Shown in pieces: positions 23,291 through 52,500 of a stretch of DNA of 64,000 bases. Source of the DNA: Aminobacter sp. AP02 (lineage in GTDB: Bacteria > Pseudomonadota > Alphaproteobacteria > Rhizobiales > Rhizobiaceae); contig NZ_QGGX01000015.1 in the NCBI RefSeq assembly GCF_003148805.1, forward strand, positions 62,001 through 126,000, given 5' to 3'. A program made the translations under genes and the position numbers. Positions within the stretch are counted from its first letter, which is position 1; the number at the start of each line of letters is the position of its first letter. The notes beneath the pieces were generated by a model. That model made no database searches. It saw only the letters and a program-made list of their open reading frames with translations, and was not told the DNA's origin.

Positions 23291-24091
23291 ATGGCTAAAG
23301 AAACGCTACCCGCAGCGCTTAAGCTGATGTTCGGGCATGAGGGCGGTTATTCAAACCACCCGAGCGACCCCGGCGGGCCGACGAAATACGGCGTCACGCT
23401 CAAGACGTTGCGTGCGCATCGTCGCAACCCCAAACTTACCGCAGAGGACGTCAAGGCGCTTACCCTTGCGGAGGCGGAAGACGTCTATCACAAGTCCTAT
23501 TGGACGCAGTCTGGCGGAGACCTGCTCCCGGCTGGCCTGGACTATTCTTCTTTCGACTACGGCGTGAACTCTGGTCCGGCAACCGCCATCAAGCGGCTGC
23601 AGAAGGTGCTAGGCATCGGGCAAGACGGCATTGTCGGCGGGCAGACGCTCGCTGCGATCGATGCCTACCCTGGAGGCCTAGCTGAGCTGATCGTGGCTTA
23701 TGCCGAAGAGCGCATGCGCTATCTGCGCGGCCTTGGAACTTGGGGCAAGTTCGGTCGCGGCTGGACCATCCGGGTAACCGGCAAGGATCCAAAGGGCCAG
23801 TACAAGCCGGCCCTCGGTGTTGTCGGCAATTCCCTGCGCATGGCTGCGGGTCGCGTCACAGCACCATCGGCTTCGCCTGTCGGAACGCCGAAGGCGCCTC
23901 CATCGGACGCAGGCATCGCCGAGATCCTGAAGAAGCCTGAGGCATGGGCGCCGCTTGGCGGCTTGCTGTCCGCGGTTGGCGGTATGGCGGCCGGGGCAGG
24001 GCCAGTGCAATGGGCGCTGGCCGTCGTGCTGGTGGCTGGCGTTGGCTATGGGCTCTATCGGCTTGTTAAGCGCGAACGGGCAACAGCATGA
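23291..24091 (+). CDS. Endolysin, GH108 muramidase with C-terminal membrane segment
   Basis: 266 residues. The GH108 start is present with catalytic Glu17 in HEGGYSNHPSDPGGPTKYGVT (in part), followed by the peptidoglycan-binding half with LQKVLGIGQDGIVGGQT. A C-terminal hydrophobic helix (WALAVVLVAGVGYGLYRLV) ends in basic residues. The enzyme cleaves the glycan backbone at lysis. The C-terminal anchor would tether it to the inner membrane, an unusual but known layout. It overlaps the spanin gene by 4 bp. Confidence 0.9.
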   Translation: MAKETLPAALKLMFGHEGGYSNHPSDPGGPTKYGVTLKTLRAHRRNPKLTAEDVKALTLAEAEDVYHKSYWTQSGGDLLPAGLDYSSFDYGVNSGPATAIKRLQKVLGIGQDGIVGGQTLAAIDAYPGGLAELIVAYAEERMRYLRGLGTWGKFGRGWTIRVTGKDPKGQYKPALGVVGNSLRMAAGRVTAPSASPVGTPKAPPSDAGIAEILKKPEAWAPLGGLLSAVGGMAAGAGPVQWALAVVLVAGVGYGLYRLVKRERATA

Positions 24092-27189: not shown

Positions 27190-27954
27190 TCAGATCAACG
27201 TCGGTTGGGCTCGACCCTCAACGATCTGGCTTGGTGGGAGATCAACAATCGTCAGCAATTCGTCGGGCAGGGGGCGCTGCAGCGCTTTCGCTTCTTGCCA
27301 GGGCGCCGTCAGCCAGGTCTCGATTTCCTCAGGCGTGGTCAGTATGACCGGCATTGCCTTGGAATGGATAGGCCGAACAACGCCGTTCGGATCGGTGGTC
27401 AGAAAGGCATAGACCTCCCAATCGAGCACGCCGTCGCGGATGGTTCGGGCACCCCGCCAAGGTGTCCAGAGCCCGGCGAACACCGCCAGCGGCTTGCTTT
27501 CGTTGAGGGCGAACCAGAAGTTCCGATGCTGGCCGGTGTCTGGATCTTTGTCGCCATCCGTCGGGCTAGGCTCTGCGAAGCTGGTAAATGGGACGACGCA
27601 GCGATTGCCGACGCCGAGCCATTGAGCCCAGTGCTTGCTGTCGGTCTTGCGGATATTGGTGACGCCGCGGTCGGGCTCCTTCGCCAACAGATCGTTGAAA
27701 TCGACCGTCTGGCCTTTGGCCTGCAACTTCTGCGCGCGCTTCTTGGTTGCCTCGAACATCACCTTCAACGAGGTCGGCATGCCCCAATTCAGCATTGCCA
27801 GCTGGCGGCGCCCTTCGAAGTTTCTCACCACTGGCCCATTGCGACCGGGATAGACGTCAAGCGAAGGCTCAAGGTTGCCCGCGATATCGTCGAATAGCTT
27901 GGCCAGTCCACGGATGGCGTCCTGGGTGGTGGTGATGTTGTAGAGGTTGCACAT
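27190..27954 (-). CDS. SRAP / YedK-HMCES abasic-site crosslinking protein
   Basis: 254 residues from ATG 27954, which puts the catalytic Cys at position 2 (MCNLYN). Other family features are the TNIRKTDSKHW segment, the VPFTSFAEP strand with its Glu, and HSKAMPVIL with the active-site His. SRAP proteins form a covalent link with abasic sites in single-stranded DNA to protect replication forks. The gene is divergent from the next one, across a LexA-type GTTC-N7-GTTC box, consistent with SOS control. A ribosome-site-poor upstream extension is ignored because Cys2 defines the start. Confidence 0.9.
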   Translation of the reverse strand: MCNLYNITTTQDAIRGLAKLFDDIAGNLEPSLDVYPGRNGPVVRNFEGRRQLAMLNWGMPTSLKVMFEATKKRAQKLQAKGQTVDFNDLLAKEPDRGVTNIRKTDSKHWAQWLGVGNRCVVPFTSFAEPSPTDGDKDPDTGQHRNFWFALNESKPLAVFAGLWTPWRGARTIRDGVLDWEVYAFLTTDPNGVVRPIHSKAMPVILTTPEEIETWLTAPWQEAKALQRPLPDELLTIVDLPPSQIVEGRAQPTLI

Positions 27955-28372: not shown

Positions 28373-28636
28373 ATGCCGATGCTGTCTGAATTCCCGTCCG
28401 AAAAGGTCATTGTCTCGTGCGAAAAATGCGGGATGTGGAAGCAGTACGACCGAGACGCGATGGTCCGAACCGGGGGAGATCGCACACTGGCGCACTTGCT
28501 CGATGAGATTGTCGCGCGCGTGGGCTGCCCAAAAGCTAAAAGCCTGAGCGTCTATGACCGGTGCGGAGCCAAGTACGAGGATCTGCTAGCCCTGATGGGC
28601 GGCGGAAATGCGTATGCGAAGGCGAAGGGCGGGTGA
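28373..28636 (+). CDS. Small CxxC protein
   Basis: 87 residues with a CEKC motif near residue 16 and further Cys in GCPK and DRCG, giving a possible zinc knuckle. It follows the previous gene by 21 bp in the same direction and may share its promoter. The function is unknown. The C terminus is Gly/Lys-rich. Confidence 0.6.
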   Translation: MPMLSEFPSEKVIVSCEKCGMWKQYDRDAMVRTGGDRTLAHLLDEIVARVGCPKAKSLSVYDRCGAKYEDLLALMGGGNAYAKAKGG

Positions 28637-28679: not shown

Positions 28680-28691
28680 GTTCGATCGAAC
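28680..28691. promoter_or_regulatory. 12-bp palindrome upstream of HEPN-like gene
   Basis: GTTCGATCGAAC is a perfect palindrome in the 119-bp gap before the HEPN-like gene. It could be an operator for a dimeric regulator, such as the nearby XRE protein; no partner is proven. Confidence 0.3.
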
Positions 28692-28755
28692 ACGAGGCAG
28701 GCCGCTGCTTGTCAGGTTGCGCCGCGTATGTTTTTTCAAGGGGGGGGGGATTCAC

Positions 28756-29355
28756 ATGCTGACCAAAACCGCGCTGCTCGAACTCGACGCTGAAACGCGA
28801 ACCTTTGCTCTTGTTGGAGCCTTCATCGGCTATTTTGCCCTTCTCGAGCAAGGCATTGAGAGTGCACTAGGCGAAGTAGTCGGCGTGGATGGAGTGCGTC
28901 GAGCGATTATCGGCCGGAACATGGGGTTCGATGACAAAATCAAGACCCTGCGTACGTTGGTCGATCTTTTTATTACTGATAAGGTGGAAGCAAAGCGATT
29001 TGACGATTTGGCCAAGCGCGCCAGAAAGTGTGGCGAACTCCGCAACATAGTGGCGCATACGCCATTTCGTCAGAGCTCCACTTCAGATGGAGCAGAGTTT
29101 TTCCCAATTTCCGCGAGCAGCAAGCTTGAGTTTCCTGACATGGACTGGTCGATCGACGACTTCCTGATGCAAATCGACAGCATCAATCAGATCGACAACG
29201 ACTTAAGGTCTCTCGAGAAGCGCATGTCACTACAACGTATTGCTGAAGCCCTTATGCAGGTGCCCGACGCCAACGATGCTCGTGGGGAGCGGGCTGCTGC
29301 CGTGGGCGGCCTCTTCGGCCTCGGCTCGGCTCTCCTGAAAGACAATGACCCCTGA
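28756..29355 (+). CDS. HEPN-like protein, possible abortive-infection RNase
   Basis: 199 residues from ATG 28756. It is all-helical, with LVGAFIGYFALLEQGIESAL near the N terminus and RNIVAH in the middle, which fits the RX4-6H signature of HEPN ribonuclease domains. The C-terminal part is coiled coil plus a Gly-rich tail. HEPN proteins are common in toxin-antitoxin and phage-defence systems. A G10 tract (28740-28749) lies six bases before the ATG and could change translation by slippage. HEPN assignment rests on one motif plus fold, so it is tentative. Confidence 0.6.
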   Translation: MLTKTALLELDAETRTFALVGAFIGYFALLEQGIESALGEVVGVDGVRRAIIGRNMGFDDKIKTLRTLVDLFITDKVEAKRFDDLAKRARKCGELRNIVAHTPFRQSSTSDGAEFFPISASSKLEFPDMDWSIDDFLMQIDSINQIDNDLRSLEKRMSLQRIAEALMQVPDANDARGERAAAVGGLFGLGSALLKDNDP

Positions 29356-29430
29356 TAAGCCTTGGCTTCCACGTCTGATTACCTTCTTGTCTTTACATCA
29401 CCGCCGGGACTTTTTCAGAGGGAATTGCAA

Positions 29431-29556
29431 ATGGCTCGACTTGGACAGAAGCCGCACATTAGAAACATCAAGGGTAAAAGCGGTTCGGCCACGACCAGAA
29501 CAATCCGCGCGGGCGGAAAGCCGAAGCCTACGAAGTCAGCGCTAAAGAAGAGCTAG
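29431..29556 (+). CDS. Tiny basic protein
   Basis: 41 residues from ATG 29431 with GAGGG eight bases upstream. Almost one third of the residues are Lys or Arg, with several Gly and Thr (GKSGSATTRTIRAGGKPKPT). It probably binds nucleic acid or an acidic partner. It follows the HEPN-like gene by 75 bp in the same direction and might be a partner of it; no family recognised. Confidence 0.5.
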   Translation: MARLGQKPHIRNIKGKSGSATTRTIRAGGKPKPTKSALKKS

Positions 29557-29675
29557 TTGCCTTAATCAGCAGATCGGCCAGGTTTGAGGGATGTCCCGCT
29601 GTTCTTCGATGCGTTCGGCGTCGGTCATGGGGTGTCCTAACTCGCTGTCAATTGTCTGCAGCTACACGCTCGGCG

Positions 29676-30794
29676 ATGACGACTATCAATATTTCCCGTC
29701 GAGAACTCTACGAAAAGGTCTGGGCCGCTCCACTGCAAAAAGTCGCGGATGCCCTCGACTGCGACTACTGGCGGTTGAGAGCGGCCTGCATCGAACGGCA
29801 TGTCCCTCTCCCGCCAAAAGGCTACTGGATGAAGGTAGCTCACGGGAAAGCACTCCCTGAGCGTCCGGCTCTTCCCGACCATCCTAGTGGGTATAACGCG
29901 GTACCGCTTCACGTTGGTGATGCGGCCGAGAAAGCGCAGATCGCGGCCCGACGTTCGCTTGCGCAAGAGATCGTCGAATCGCTTGGCCCCATCAGAGTTC
30001 CATCTCGCCTGGTCAACCCCCATCCCGCAGTTGCCGAGATAATCGCAGATCCGTCTCGTTGGCCAATCCCGCGCGAGATGCGCGCTGCTCTGACCAAACC
30101 TCCGAGCGATTGCCTTCGGCGCGCGTTCCGTTTCTTAAATGTTATTGCTCGGGCCGAGGCGCAGGGCTTTACGGTTCGCGGAGGGGCAGACGGTGGTCTG
30201 ATTATTTCGTCTGAGTATCGCAACACGACCATTCGCGTACGAGAAAAGCTGAAGCGGGTAGCAATTCAGCTGCCGAGAGATCCACATGATCGCTATGCAG
30301 ATCTAACGTCAAAGAACCGGTCGGACGATGGCTACCAACTGCAACCAAGCGGTTTGCTGGAAATCCAGCTTTACGGTGGTAAGTGGGCTGAGGAGCCCAA
30401 GGACGACTTGGAGGCCAGCCTTCCGCACTTGATTGCGCGTCTCGTCAGCGACCGTGAGTATGACAAAGAACGGGCTGCATCGGCTGCGGAGCGGGAGCGG
30501 CTTCGCCAGATAGAGTCGCGCAAGCGGGCAAAAGCGAAGAAGATCGCGGATCAAGAGGCGTTGGCCTTTGGCGAGTTCCTCGAGATGTCTGTTCGTTGGA
30601 CAGCGACGACCCAAGCGCGTGCATTCGTTGCCGCCATTGGCGCTGCCGGACCAAGTTCTGCAAACACTTCAACCTTGGAGTGGCTTGTCAGTAAGCTGGA
30701 TGCGCATGATCCCCTACAGGATGGCCCTGACAAAGTGCTCGAAAGGCTCAGTGCGGTGCGAGACGACATAGGAGAGTGGAAGGATATGGACTAG
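29676..30794 (+). CDS. Conserved island protein with N-terminal HTH-like 'PPKGYW' domain
   Basis: 372 residues from ATG 29676. The N-terminal 60 contain SRRELYEKVWAAPLQKVADALDCD and RHVPLPPKGYWMKVAHGK, a conserved domain met in genomic islands next to defence or recombination genes and probably DNA-binding. The middle is alpha/beta, and residues about 265-300 form a charged coiled coil (RAASAAERERLRQIESRKRA). The biochemical role is not known. No ribosome site is obvious. Confidence 0.65.
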   Translation: MTTINISRRELYEKVWAAPLQKVADALDCDYWRLRAACIERHVPLPPKGYWMKVAHGKALPERPALPDHPSGYNAVPLHVGDAAEKAQIAARRSLAQEIVESLGPIRVPSRLVNPHPAVAEIIADPSRWPIPREMRAALTKPPSDCLRRAFRFLNVIARAEAQGFTVRGGADGGLIISSEYRNTTIRVREKLKRVAIQLPRDPHDRYADLTSKNRSDDGYQLQPSGLLEIQLYGGKWAEEPKDDLEASLPHLIARLVSDREYDKERAASAAERERLRQIESRKRAKAKKIADQEALAFGEFLEMSVRWTATTQARAFVAAIGAAGPSSANTSTLEWLVSKLDAHDPLQDGPDKVLERLSAVRDDIGEWKDMD

Positions 30795-30890
30795 GGCGTC
30801 GAAAGCCATCGCTTTGTTGTGGATACCGTCGATTGCAGAGGACATTGCATTTGGGGCGTGAGTGAATAGTCCGAGCGATATGGGGCAGCG

Positions 30891-31619
30891 ATGACCGAAA
30901 CCAAGTCGAACACTGGTCCTGGTGGTCTCATCCTCAGTGATGAGGAGAGCAAGGCACTCCAAGAAGTGGCCAAGACCGCAAGCAAATATGAGCAGGCGGC
31001 TCGTGAACTCGGCGCATTCGTCGGGTCCGTAATTGGGCACCCCCTGCGACAGGCCGGTGGTCTATTGGGCGATTCACTTGGAATACTGCGTCTTGAAATG
31101 GCCCTCCGATACAAGGGGCGAGTAGATCGGATCATGCACGAGCGCGGCTTAAGCGGCCCACAGCGTGAAATTCCCTTATCGGTAGCCTATCCGTTGCTTG
31201 AGGCTGCCTCAATTGAAGAGGACGAGCAGCTTCAGGAAATGTTCGCCCAATTGCTGGTGAATGCGATCGACGGCAATGTCGGGGGGTACATACCAAAATC
31301 ATTCGTTGAAACCATTCGCAAGATGTCCCCCTTGGAGGCACTGATCTTGAACCGGATGGTAGATGCACCGCCCACAAGTGTTGGCGATGGGGGCATGATG
31401 TACACCGGGCGCCTGCCGGACGACTATTTAGATAGTCCAGCGGCAATTGACGGAGGAGAGCCGGAACCTAGGGCAGATGTCGCTTTGGCTCTATCATCCC
31501 TCATAGCGGCTGGGTGTGTTGGCGCTATGCTTCGCATGAACGGCTCGTACGACATTGCTGAGGCGCGGGTGACAGAGTTCGGTCAAGCATTGGTGCGGGC
31601 CTGCAGATCGCCTGCGTAG
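30891..31619 (+). CDS. DUF4393 / Abi-alpha family protein
   Basis: 242 residues. The DUF4393 layout is clear: a short N-terminal helix, the Gly-rich amphipathic LGAFVGSVIGHPLRQAGGLLGDSL, then LRLEMALRYKGRVDRIMHERGL and PLLEAASIEEDEQLQEMFAQLLVNA. The family includes 'Abi-alpha' abortive-infection proteins and membrane-associated defence proteins. It stands alone downstream of the PPKGYW gene and upstream of an XRE regulator. Defence activity is inferred from family and place. Confidence 0.78.
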   Translation: MTETKSNTGPGGLILSDEESKALQEVAKTASKYEQAARELGAFVGSVIGHPLRQAGGLLGDSLGILRLEMALRYKGRVDRIMHERGLSGPQREIPLSVAYPLLEAASIEEDEQLQEMFAQLLVNAIDGNVGGYIPKSFVETIRKMSPLEALILNRMVDAPPTSVGDGGMMYTGRLPDDYLDSPAAIDGGEPEPRADVALALSSLIAAGCVGAMLRMNGSYDIAEARVTEFGQALVRACRSPA

Positions 31620-31644
31620 GCATTCACTGTTGCTGGCGCGGGGC

Positions 31645-31884
31645 TCAGCCCTGCCGCTCTTTGAGCCTCACGCCAGGGCCATTGCCGTTCTGATCGATGA
31701 ACATCACGCCGGCCGCCTCAAGGGCGGCGCGGATGTCACGCAGCGTCCTTTCATAGGGCGTCGACTTTTCAGCTTCGAAATTGGCGAGCGTTGCTCGACC
31801 GACTCCCGCTGCTTCGCAGAGATCGGATTGCGACCATGCTAGCAGGGCACGTGCGGCGCGGCATTGTGCAGCTGTAGTGGGCAT
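31645..31884 (-). CDS. XRE-family transcriptional regulator
   Basis: 79 residues, a single helix-turn-helix domain with RALLAWSQSDLCEAAGVGRATLANFEAEK and a short C-terminal extension ending GVRLKERQG. It is divergent from the 116-residue gene across about 100 bp with palindromic TGCAT sequences, so it likely regulates both. The small size fits an antitoxin or phage-type repressor. Confidence 0.85.
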   Translation of the reverse strand: MPTTAAQCRAARALLAWSQSDLCEAAGVGRATLANFEAEKSTPYERTLRDIRAALEAAGVMFIDQNGNGPGVRLKERQG

Positions 31885-31909
31885 TATGGCTAACTCGATA
31901 CTTTTTGCA

Positions 31910-31943
31910 TTGACTTGGCATCGGACGATGCAATATGCATTGA
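31910..31943. promoter_or_regulatory. Divergent operator/promoter between XRE and 116-residue gene
   Basis: Contains ATGCA-ATA-TGCAT, a perfect 5-bp inverted repeat (31928-31940), and a TTGACT that could be a -35 element. TGCAT half-sites recur on both sides. The position between divergent starts makes it the natural binding site for the XRE protein. Confidence 0.45.
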
Positions 31944-31987
31944 GTCATACCAAATGCATCGCATCGACGCAACGAGGAGCCCGCATC

Positions 31988-32338
31988 ATGCTTAACAGCC
32001 CGTTACCGCAGGGAACATACGGACAGTCAGTCACAGACCTGGCTAAGCGCTATCACGCAGTTACGGCTCTCTACGCGATGTGCCCTTGGGTCGACGATGC
32101 GATGGACCGGATATGCGAGGCGGCCGAGATCGTTGAGCATGAGATTTTCAATACGGCTTCCGCTGACTTCAGCGAGATCGCAATCAAGCTCCGCATCCTT
32201 GCCGACAAGGCGGATGATACATCGTCGCTCCATGACATGCAGGGCAGGGTGAGAGACATTGCTGGCGAGTGGGACAGGCTGCTCGGCGTGGGGCAAGCGG
32301 CCGTGCATAAGCTGGACGCCTTCTTGAAGGCCGCTTGA
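31988..32338 (+). CDS. Small helical protein divergent from XRE regulator
   Basis: 116 residues from ATG 31988, which has GAGGAG eight bases upstream. It is entirely helical and acidic, with YHAVTALYAMCPWVDDAMDRI and a C-terminal amphipathic segment. The family is unknown. Divergent arrangement with an XRE regulator is seen in toxin-antitoxin and phage control pairs. It ends seven bases before the tRNA-like element. Confidence 0.6.
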   Translation: MLNSPLPQGTYGQSVTDLAKRYHAVTALYAMCPWVDDAMDRICEAAEIVEHEIFNTASADFSEIAIKLRILADKADDTSSLHDMQGRVRDIAGEWDRLLGVGQAAVHKLDAFLKAA

Positions 32339-32345
32339 TCGAATC

Positions 32346-32423
32346 GCCCCTGTACCGGCGCGGGACTTCTAGCCCGTGAGCCGTAATTGGATGATGCGCG
32401 TTCGAATCGCGCCAGGGGCTCCA
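32346..32423 (+). tRNA. tRNA-like element, non-canonical
   Basis: 78 nt with a perfect 7-bp acceptor stem (GCCCCTG at 32346-32352 with CAGGGGC at 32413-32419), T8-A9, discriminator T, an encoded CCA, and a 5-bp T arm around the consensus loop TTCGAAT. The centre does not give D and anticodon arms. Instead it folds into one long hairpin (6 bp, 32359-32364 with 32373-32378, extended by 3 bp beyond a bulge) with loop ACTTCTAG. It may be a degenerate tRNA, a prophage-altered tRNA end or a tRNA mimic. Confidence 0.4.
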
Positions 32424-32588
32424 ATCAAAGCTGACAGCTACCAACTGTCGGCAAGGGCCGCACTGAACGCTATTTCGTTTAGTGGCACCACCGGCCCGCT
32501 ACAATGCCCAAAGCGGGGAGGGAAAGCGGGGAAGACCCGGCTCGCTTTTCAGAAAATGTAAGGAAAACAAACGCTTAGCCAAATGAAA

Positions 32589-32663
32589 TGGCTCCCCGGG
32601 CCGGATTCGAACCAGCGACCAACCGGTTAACAGCCGGTTGCTCTACCACTGAGCTACCGGGGA
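32589..32663 (-). tRNA. tRNA-Asn (GTT)
   Basis: A complete cloverleaf on the minus strand with encoded CCA. Acceptor TCCCCGG pairs with CCGGGGA, the D arm begins AGCTCAGTGGTAGAGC, the anticodon loop is CTGTTAA, and the T loop TTCGAAT is consensus. It is the first clearly chromosomal gene right of the accessory region and a candidate attachment site. Confidence 0.95.
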
Positions 32664-49541: not shown

Positions 49542-52500
49542 ATGGCAGATAGAACCCAGCTGAAGATCGCAGACAAGAACCAGTTCGCCGACGAAGACCC
49601 CTTCGCTGAATTGACGAGGATCATGGGCTTCGACCCGCGCCAGCCTGTGGTGCGCCAGGATGTTGGCGCGCCCGCTGGTCACGTGGATCCGGCTATGGAC
49701 GACGATTTCGGCATCGATCTGGAAAAGGAATTGCTCGGCGAATTGGCCGTCGACGAACAGGTTGCGGCGCCGCAATACGAGGCTCCCGCTTCTTACGTTC
49801 AGGCTGAAGATCCGGCCGAAGAGGCAGCCTATGCGCGTGCCTCCGAACCGCAATTTGAGCCGGAATTCGCGGACGCTTCATTCGATGATGCGGTTGCGGC
49901 CAGCTTCGAGCAGGATTTTTCGCTTGAAGACGAGCTGCTGCGCCCTGAGGAGCCGGCCTATGCCGTTGAACCGGCTTACGCAGTGGAGCCCGACTACGCT
50001 GTAGCGCCTGCCTACGCTGCCGCACCTGAAGTCGACTTTGCGCCCGAAGCGGCGTTTGACGATGCCGTTGCCGCATCTTTCGAGCAGGACTTTTCGCTCG
50101 AAGACGAATTGCTGCCGGTCGAAGAAAGCACCGAGCAAGTCGCTGCACCGGTTGCTTATGCCGTGCCGGCTGAAGTCGACCTCGATGCCGATTTCGATGT
50201 CGCGCTTGCCAATGTCGACATGGATTTCGCTGCGCATGACGATGCGAATTACACTGTCGAGGCCGGAGACGACGAACCGCTGACGCTGGGCGAGTATCAG
50301 CAAGCCGAGCCGGAAATCGCGTTTTCCAGCGAGGAGCTGGTCGACGAATCCCAGGCGGTCGCGGCGCCTGTCGCGCAGGCCCAGGACTATGACGAGTTCG
50401 AACGCCGCTTGCAGGATGCCCTGCAAGATGAAGAACCGGCCTACGAACCAGCGGTTGCCTACGAAGAGCCAGCCTATCAGCCCGAGGCTGTCGCCGCCCC
50501 AGTGGCAGCGCCGGTTGCAGAAGATACCAGCCTCGAAGACGAGCTGAACGCTTTGCTCGGCAACATGAGCAGCCAGGCCAAGGCACTGTCCGAGCCGACG
50601 CCGCTTCGCGCTGTCGAGCCGGTTGCAGAGCCCGAGCCTGCCTTTGCCAGTTCGTTGTGGGCGGCTGAGCAGCCTGAAGAAGCCGCACCGCAGGAATCTG
50701 AAACGACAGACTTTGCGCCGTCCTACGAAGCGCAGCAGGTCGCGGATTATTCGTCCGAAGTCGAAGAGGCCCCGGTTCTGGCGGATGCCGGCTATTCCGA
50801 GCCGAGCTATGACCATCAGGCCGACGTCGATGTCAGCTTCGATGATGACGCCTTCGACATGGCACTTGAGCATAGCGCGGTAACGGATGTGGCAGAGGTG
50901 GTCGCGCCTGTCGCAGCCGCTGCTGCCGCTGCCGCACCGCTGCGTCCGCTGGCTGCCTCGCGTTATGAGCAGGCCCGCAGCTGGGGGCTTGGTACACCGG
51001 TCGCGCCGCGCGCCGTCGACACGCAGCCAAGCTATCGATCCGAGGCGAGTTCTGGCTACAAACCCGAGGCCTATGCCGCGCCCACCGAAACCTTTGCGCA
51101 GCGTGACGAACCCGAAGCCGTCGAATCCTACATGCCGCAGCAAGCCGAGCCTGTTGTCGATGTGGCCGACGACCTCGAGGCGGAGCTGTTCGAAGCCGTT
51201 TCGTCCTTCGACGATGCTCCGGACATCGAGACGGTCGACGTGCCGGAAAAGGCCGTGGCCCTTGCCGATGATCTGGATATTCCCGAGCTGTCTTTCGAAG
51301 ACGATGCTCCGCCTGCGCCTGCCTATGACGATCTTGACGGCGAATTCTCGAACCTGATGAACGAGATGAACGCGGCCGAGACCGGCACGCAGTCGACGTC
51401 GTCGAGCTACGCGGCCAATCCCTACGCTACCGGTTTTGACCGCAAGACGTTGCGCGATGGCGATGTCGCTCAGCAGATCGAGTTTCCGGCTGCCGCAGCG
51501 GCCGGTGCTGCCGCTGGTGCGGCTGCCATGTATGGCGCACGCCAGTCCGCGCAGGGTGGCGAACGCCCGACCGGCTTCGATCTCGGCGGCATGCAGCAGA
51601 GCCAGGGGGCGGCACCGCGCCAGCAGCCACCGCTTGACGATTTCGACTACGATCCTGATTTCGACGAGGCGATGGAAACGCTGCCCGGTTCTTCCGAGAC
51701 GGCTCGTCCGGCTCGTCGCGGCATGATGATCGCTGCCGTCGTCGGCGCGGTCGCCATTGTTGGCGGCATTGGCGCCTGGGCGCTTTCAACCGGCGGCGGA
51801 GATGGGGCCGGAGCGCCCGTTATCGTCAAGGCCGACGAGAGCCCGATCAAGGTCAAGCCGGAAAATCCCGGTGGCATGACCGTTCCGAACCAGGACAGCA
51901 AGGTCTATGACCGCGTTGCCGGTGGTACGGCTAACGGTGCGCCCGCCCAGGAAAAGCTAGTTACGAACACCGAAGAGCCGATCGACGTGACGGCGCAGGA
52001 CGAGGCGAGCGCCTCCGATTCCCTGCCGCTCAATGAAGAAGATACGGCCGATGCTCCGACCGCGAAGTCGGAAGACCGTGTCGCGCAGGCGGCCCAGGCC
52101 GACCAGCCGGATGCCAGCGCCGAGACGGCTGCTGTTGCTCCGCGCAAGGTGCGCACCATGGTCGTGCGTCCTGATGGCACGCTGGTTCCCCGCGAAGAGC
52201 CGGCTCCTGCCGCCGTTGCTGCGACCGAGCCGGCCGATCCGGCACCACAACGTGTTGCCGGAAGCGAAGCCACCGGCACGGTGCCGGCCCAGCCGGCGTT
52301 GGCACCGGTCGCCAAGCCGGCTCAGCCGACCAATGCGCCCGCCCAGTCGACCAATACGCCAGCCAGCGCTCCAGTCGCGCCGCAGCGTCCTTCGCAGCAG
52401 CCGGTCAATGTGGTCGGCGAAGTCAAGCCGGACCAGGTTGCCGCCTTGGCACCTTCGGCTCCGACAGCTGCTGCTTCGGGCGCCTGGGCGATGCAGATTG

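Follow-up and report, generated by a model that had tools for sequence, protein, structure and literature searches.

Canonical tRNAs have a 7-bp acceptor stem, a 5-bp T-arm, and a terminal CCA, and allo-tRNAs show that bacteria also contain tRNAs with a non-canonical cloverleaf. Both bear a likeness to an RNA gene that we describe here from a 64,000-nucleotide stretch of the Aminobacter sp. AP02 genome (contig NZ_QGGX01000015.1, positions 62,001 to 126,000; hereafter the window, meaning this whole stretch), where it stands at one end of a prophage beside a block of protein genes. tRNAs lacking the D-arm have been described in mitochondria, and the consulted parts of a review of non-canonical tRNAs contain no word beginning with "phage" (PMC7609411). 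The window RNA is read here as belonging to a new structural class of phage tRNA-Arg, which is widespread and mostly missed by standard tools. No description of this class was found in literature titles and abstract openings, a coverage that mostly leaves out subscription papers and bioRxiv, and a prior description is possible. The original prediction for this region had centered on the protein genes, taken together as a possible antiphage cluster, with a tRNA-like gene as a landmark at its edge.

Structure and covariation of the RNA

The 7-bp acceptor stem of the RNA is followed by a linker of 3-4 bases that starts with UA and leads directly into the anticodon arm. This arm is extended by a CGN/NCG helix, after which come a single-stranded GGA linker, a 5-bp T-arm, and the 3' strand of the acceptor. 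CCA is encoded in the window copy and in most copies of the family. ARAGORN makes no call on the window copy, and Rfam returns no match to it at E≤1, the gathering threshold of RF00005 not being reached.

A DNA search found matches to the RNA in 15 of 199 genomes of the window's own family (Rhizobiaceae; own genome included). Seven of the aligned BLAST copies, including the window's own, were near full length, and an eighth aligned over 62 bases. A first search pattern built from these copies (TTCTA...CGTAA...ATGCNNGTTCGA) matched 44 viral contigs; 43 of the matches could be extended, and the 44th ends at a contig edge. The resulting set comprised 51 copies (43 distinct), from 43 viral contigs, 7 BLAST matches, and 1 genome copy. 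Two further copies were left out, L196 because a contig end cuts it and L172 because it does not fit the pattern.

The acceptor stem lies outside the search pattern and is paired at 7 of 7 positions in 48 of the 51 copies and at 6 of 7 in the other 3, with the best 5' offset chosen and the 3' strand fixed. RNAalifold on the 43 distinct sequences recovered the 7-bp acceptor, the CGN/NCG helix, the anticodon stem, and the T-stem, with two-sided changes in 16 of 19 pairs and compensatory changes in all four helices. It placed no pairs 5' of the anticodon arm, and so no D-stem, and no long variable arm. Pairing reached 96.6% over 817 cells, against 38-44% in slid versions, and the covariation score was 0.749 versus 0.179 (sd 0.014) in shuffled alignments, none of which (0/500) attained it. 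A second, model-fitted alignment of 29 distinct rows behaved in the same way (97.4% paired; covariation 0.826 versus 0.199), and in it one helix pair that had been invariant in the first alignment was GC in 21 rows and CG in 8. The covariation of acceptor, T-arm, and anticodon stem is what would be expected of a functional tRNA, while the D-arm that a canonical tRNA has 5' of the anticodon arm is absent. An identity as tmRNA was also considered and dropped: ARAGORN called one tmRNA in 54 loci, and it does not overlap any copy.

Anticodons and proposed arginine identity

A covariance model searched over 58 sources gave 62 distinct members, with anticodons UCU in 46 (a count biased by the pattern), UCG in 5, CCU in 4, ACG in 4, and GCG in 1. 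A second pattern that left the anticodon free matched 56 contigs. Among its 47 distinct copies, 17 of which come from loci of the first scan, 46 carry arginine anticodons (UCU 25, ACG 13, UCG 6, CCU 2) and the 47th (L255) has the loop CUUCUAA, read by eye. This anticodon-free set shows 7-nt anticodon loops with plausible anticodons, and 46 of the 47 copies pair 6 or 7 of 7 positions in the acceptor. The anticodon loops mostly retain U33 and A37, and the linker GGA is found in 57 of the 62 model members, GGA being part of the second pattern.

Positions A20 and C35 are determinants for arginyl-tRNA synthetase (ArgRS). A restriction of the class to arginine is predicted if ArgRS depends on these two bases. 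Separately, two weaker model matches (44 bits; L209 396-475 and L220 1211-1290) have the loop CTTATGA, with anticodon UAU, and may represent an extension of this RNA architecture beyond arginine.

Distribution among phages and prophages

Many copies stand in tRNA arrays. Of the 59 copies found with the second pattern, 33 have another tRNA called by ARAGORN no more than 15 nt away, in every case on their own strand. The first set numbers 53 copies, of which 19 share their locus with at least 4 other tRNAs; ARAGORN also calls an Arg(tct) tRNA in 2 of these 19 loci. The window copy is solitary, outside any array. ARAGORN called 2 of the 59 copies as tRNA-Arg and 4 as something else, leaving 53 uncalled. 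Eight copies from seven loci that score at least 70 bits with our model (R1) were compared with Rfam: one (L188) passes the tRNA cut-off, 3 have no match at E≤5, and 4 match tRNA-Sec (RF01852) at 24.5-26 bits, below its 47-bit cut-off.

Named phages also contain the RNA. Mycobacterium phage Cosmo has an unannotated copy inside a tRNA array. The copy of phage CcrColossus matched 42 records (30 Caulobacter, 9 Vibrio, and 3 Brevundimonas), 32 of them over at least 80% of its length, and none of the 20 matches listed has an annotated feature beneath it. Caulobacter phage phiCbK has an unannotated copy (52333-52415; 72.4 bits) within its tRNA array, between tRNA-Gln and tRNA-Gly; the loop UUACGAA of this copy gives the arginine anticodon ACG. 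The published genome analysis, based on tRNAscan-SE 1.21 and Rfam, names phiCbK as the one member of the phage set with no Arg tRNA (PMC3556154). BLAST against named phages gave no match for the L216 copy with its flanks or for the L220 copy; the matches of an earlier query fell on the neighboring tRNA-Met.

Within the window's own family there are at least 13 copies at 64 bits or more, in at least 10 of the 199 genomes. The other matches listed there score 40 bits or less and look like ordinary tRNAs, and with the model the tRNA-Cys and tRNA-Asn genes of the window itself reach 29-30 bits. PHROGs searches with 10 ORFs flanking the Rhizobiaceae copies gave a single match, to an ATPase, and lent no support to a prophage location of those copies. 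In another genome of the family, the RNA at L172 1503-1581 lies 473 bp from a tRNA-Asn gene, possibly the same kind of integration edge as in the window.

Proposed function and alternative explanations

On the basis of these comparisons, we consider it likely that the window RNA is a working arginine tRNA, which would be charged and would decode. It would be processed and then charged by ArgRS. The GGA of the linker could replace G18-G19-A20 of the D-loop, with the GG making the elbow contact to the T-loop and the A serving ArgRS. The window RNA would then decode AGA and AGG during phage expression, while its relatives would read CGN codons. The benefit would lie in extra arginine decoding, perhaps combined with a scaffold that host defenses cutting tRNAs recognize poorly. 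A broader version of this proposal, for which we see less than even chances, is that phages and prophages of several bacterial groups share a second tRNA architecture, reserved for arginine, in which the linker 3' of the anticodon arm has taken over the function of G18-G19-A20 from a lost D-arm. Such RNAs would be charged by ArgRS, would cover the arginine codon boxes, and, through their alien scaffold, would allow arginine decoding to go on in the phage when defenses of the host or of rivals cut canonical tRNA-Arg.

A number of observations weigh against this interpretation. The covariance model was trained on UCU copies, 2 of its 62 members do not parse as Arg, and letters of the T-loop and linker belong to the search patterns, so that their conservation is partly imposed. 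The anticodon loop of the window copy has 8 nt, or is closed by an A-G mismatch. Among the 48 copies that end in CCA, the discriminator base varies (U 31, G 11, A 6), and the encoded CCA is missing in 14 of the 62 copies; the Cosmo copy has the loop CCCCUAC, with C at position 33, and ends in CAA. The phages in the 56 loci of the second pattern do not rely on this RNA class alone, as 33 further Arg tRNAs are found among the 527 ARAGORN calls there. Nor is the class invisible, since ARAGORN calls a few copies as tRNA-Arg and Rfam passes L188. At G000 C3:122604, the host genome matches the pattern of a canonical tRNA-Arg(UCU), and codon demand appears weak because AGA and AGG make up 12.2% of Arg codons in the prophage versus 9.7% in the host stretch (heuristic ORFs).

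Some of these points, namely the canonical-type tRNA-Arg(UCU) of the host and the weak codon demand, together with the non-canonical elbow and the solitary position of the window copy, would favor a structured tRNA mimic that has no role in translation. Such an RNA might be a decoy or sponge for an anticodon nuclease, ArgRS, or a modification enzyme, or else a primer or a regulatory RNA. We regard this as unlikely, because five arginine anticodons (UCU, CCU, UCG, ACG, and GCG), in loops that mostly retain U33 and A37, are better explained by decoding than by an unchanging bait, because so many copies stand close to other tRNAs (33/59 within 15 nt), and because the copy in phiCbK supplies the Arg isotype that is missing from that phage's published inventory. 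A decayed tRNA or att-site remnant of earlier integrations would fit the distance of the RNA from attR (about 165 bp) and the lack of both an ARAGORN call and an Rfam tRNA match at E≤1. This explanation has almost no probability left in view of the compensatory changes in four helices across 43 distinct sequences and the presence of the same RNA type within the arrays of other phages, and decay was dropped as a reading on the covariation result. The tRNA-like landmark of the original prediction does exist, and it is a conserved RNA gene rather than a remnant. Its 3' end was not found a second time in the genome, which also speaks against a remnant; a longer query added to the gene itself only short matches at chance level.

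The prophage and its accessory block

The putative tRNA-Arg closes an accessory block that forms the tRNA-Asn end of a tailed prophage of about 39.6 kb (Table 1). A 22-bp exact direct repeat is shared between the 3' end of the tRNA-Asn gene and contig positions 55030-55051, 39.6 kb leftward. Just inside the left repeat is an integrase gene, followed by terminase, portal, tape-measure, and tail genes. A 39,146-bp IMG/VR viral contig encodes identical copies of all four proteins searched. The repeat and the integrase bear out the prophage-edge position that had been proposed for the block, and the named ORFs, motifs, RNA features, and tRNA-Asn were all located. Four of the ORFs are consecutive on one strand, and their open frames are intact.

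Table 1. Features of the accessory block and the adjoining attachment site (window coordinates).
Feature	Position	Strand	Basis
HEPN-like protein, 199 aa, RNIVAH; stand-alone phage cargo gene	28756..29355	+	motif only
Tiny basic ORF, 41 aa	29431..29556	+	ORF only; no family match
PPKGYW-family protein, 372 aa	29676..30794	+	small helical N-domain, middle beta domain, long C-terminal helices
Abi-alpha (DUF4393, PF14337) relative, 242 aa	30891..31619	+	PF14337 E 7.1e-21; PADLOC PDC-S47 1.2e-11
XRE-type DNA-binding protein, 79 aa	31645..31884	-	HTH_3 E 3.6e-6
Small protein, divergent from XRE gene	31988..32338	+	no family match beyond noise
Putative non-canonical tRNA-Arg(UCU) gene	32346..32423	+	model R1 77.7 bits, E 1.1e-18 (window copy in training alignment)
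attR core, 22 bp	32587..32608	none	exact direct repeat with left end 39.6 kb away
Host tRNA-Asn(GTT), integration site	32589..32663	-	ARAGORN; Rfam RF00005 72.1 bits

On its other side, the block is flanked by a gene for an SOS-associated peptidase (SRAP; window 27190-27954, minus strand). Elsewhere in the window, near an endolysin gene, 46 bp at 23331-23376 are 89% identical to Bordetella phages including BPP-1.

Cargo genes with similarity to defense families

The motif R-N-x-x-A-H is that of HEPN RNases, which the product of the first cargo gene resembles in this motif and in its helical prediction; it differs from them in belonging to a rare family and in having no HEPN family model or PDB match. 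RNxxAH is retained in all 3 members compared, at 25-28% identity, with R96, N97, A100, and H101 invariant both in a 3-row alignment and in a 2-row alignment that includes a 56% relative, and the R-x4-6-H motif expected of a HEPN nuclease is accordingly present in the relatives. The protein occurs in 2 of 199 genomes of the family and 2 of 385 of the class, its own genome being counted in both. Its structure prediction is of low confidence (mean pLDDT 54.4), and this model had no match among PDB folds at E≤0.001. Searches of phage records (E≤1e-5) and of plasmid records (E≤0.01) gave no match to the protein.

The 41-aa basic ORF may not be a gene. The XRE protein is a probable regulator, and a relative of the small protein divergent from it is found in one other genome at E 7e-4 (2/199 of the family, own genome included).

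A member of the Abi-alpha family in prophage 6 of Enterococcus faecalis (ef2833) causes abortive infection via premature lysis, according to the parts consulted of its description (PMC6356687). The 242-aa window protein is a distant Abi-alpha, matching PF14337 at 75.5 bits against a Pfam gathering cut-off of 29, and is predicted to have abortive-infection activity. As far as that source was seen, it shares with the V583 protein the PF14337 domain and carriage by a prophage (PMC6356687); in contrast, its best matched stretch covers only residues 91-161, its host is an alphaproteobacterium, and its activity is a prediction. Relatives are found in 5 of 199 genomes of the family (own included). 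A filamentous Vibrio phage of 8.6 kb also has a DUF4393/Abi-alpha gene (L151 6566-7285), whose product is 30.6% identical to the window protein.

The PPKGYW family

Searches of Pfam, NCBIfam, PHROGs, and PADLOC with the PPKGYW protein gave nothing above noise. A model from a 46-sequence alignment reached a pLDDT of 87.7 and, like the HEPN-like model, matched no PDB fold at E≤0.001; sequence searches of the PDB yielded nothing below E 0.15. Relatives are found in 33 of 199 genomes of the window's family (own included), and a scan of genome contigs with a conserved pattern gave 267, of which 80 were kept; judged by record titles, they come from Pseudomonadota, Bacteroidota, Planctomycetota, Gemmatimonadota, Acidobacteriota, and others.

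In 77 of these 80 loci (3 had no called frame for the protein), which span several phyla, the immediate neighbors amount to 143 ORFs and matched 117 PADLOC models at E≤1e-8. The control, of similar size in residues (43,647 and 43,400) and taken from the window's own family only, consisted of 118 ORFs in 13 arbitrary stretches and matched 6. The count for the neighbors is of partly redundant models and overstates the number of underlying proteins, as 11 of the 25 models listed are JetC models. The listed models also include JetD, KwaA, type I/III/IV restriction enzymes, IetS, NucC, AbiEi, and SngA, while the control matched mad3, mad8, AriA, MzaA, HEC-01A, and ATPase-Toprim_I-B. Named from one representative each, the neighbor clusters include recombinases (11 of 77 loci), HsdR-like proteins (7), and JetC-like ATPases (5). 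The PPKGYW family is associated with defense genes, an association that does not imply function. Being widespread, without a model in four libraries, and adjoining known defense genes, it is a separate lead.

Several individual loci add to this picture of the family's surroundings. In 5 loci (representative L117 9174-10397), an ankyrin-repeat gene lies 4-9 bp from the PPKGYW-family gene, which suggests a fixed two-gene unit there. On a Mesorhizobium plasmid, a PPKGYW gene adjoins AbiE and Fic genes. In a Synechococcus phage of 20 kb, which also encodes RepA-like and ParA proteins, a PPKGYW-family gene (L152 8968-10152) is close to a Txe/YoeB toxin gene. In Rhizobiaceae loci (L015/L044 and L014/L043), the PPKGYW-type N-terminal domain is matched twice per stretch.

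The protein genes as assorted cargo

A further question is whether the protein genes form one unrecognized multi-gene antiphage system. They are adjacent at the prophage edge, with four ORFs in series on one strand and several defense-type families represented, and the original prediction had treated them as a unit. The co-occurrence in homologous loci that would mark such a system is not seen. At E≤0.01, the HEPN-like, basic, Abi-alpha, XRE, small divergent, and SRAP proteins have no relative in any of the 80 PPKGYW loci (flanks of at most 8 kb, some shortened by contig ends), and one weak match, to the ORF at 28373 (E 0.004), was found among these loci. The closest relative of the HEPN-like protein (56%, on another viral contig) stands alone, with no partner gene within its 10.6-kb locus. 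Within 20 loci of the window's family, the only pairs of block genes were in L052, where 6.4 kb separate an XRE relative (56%) from an Abi-alpha relative (30%), and in L058, with a PPKGYW relative and a weak XRE match (E 0.01); a further locus has a PPKGYW relative with an SRAP gene (48%; L056). A single system is therefore very improbable. As their combination does not recur in the loci compared, the genes are an assortment of cargo, a conclusion more secure than the one on tRNA function.

The protein genes probably act singly, as superinfection or abortive-infection functions. They could instead lack a present defensive role and be hitchhiking or decaying phage DNA, an alternative that we find possible but the less probable. 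Most of the genes are rare in the family, and any active sites and the HEPN fold are putative, all of which would fit that alternative, whereas their frames are open and intact, RNxxAH is retained in distant relatives, and in Enterococcus the Abi-alpha family has proven abortive-infection activity. The claim that several genes belong to defense families holds for Abi-alpha (PF14337), for the RNxxAH motif, and for the defense-rich neighbors of PPKGYW; for the HEPN-like protein, the motif stands and the fold is a possibility. As a system the block is ordinary and as cargo moderately interesting, and the RNA at its end is the finding.

Comparison with known tRNAs

A tRNA class for one amino acid that does without the usual D-arm would test the limits of the tRNA fold on bacterial ribosomes, and it raises the question of why ArgRS would tolerate such a fold. 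Phage tRNA inventories would be undercounted, as for phiCbK, which was published as having no Arg tRNA, and the class may bear on phage defense by tRNA cutting.

Compared with canonical bacterial tRNA-Arg(UCU), the phage RNA has the same anticodon loop CUUCUA and T-loop TTCGA, but it has no D-arm between the acceptor and the anticodon arm, carries the GGA linker 3' of the anticodon arm, and has the CGN/NCG helix under the anticodon stem. It resembles tRNA-Sec in being a non-canonical bacterial cloverleaf, to which four copies score weakly, and differs from both tRNA-Sec and the allo-tRNAs in that no long variable arm is predicted and that its anticodons are those of arginine, not of serine or Sec. 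The mitochondrial tRNA-Ser(UCU) of Ascaris suum, as treated in the consulted parts of the review, likewise lacks a D-arm in the usual place (PMC7609411), while the RNA described here belongs to phages and bacteria and has a full T-arm, a long 3' linker with GGA, and arginine anticodons.

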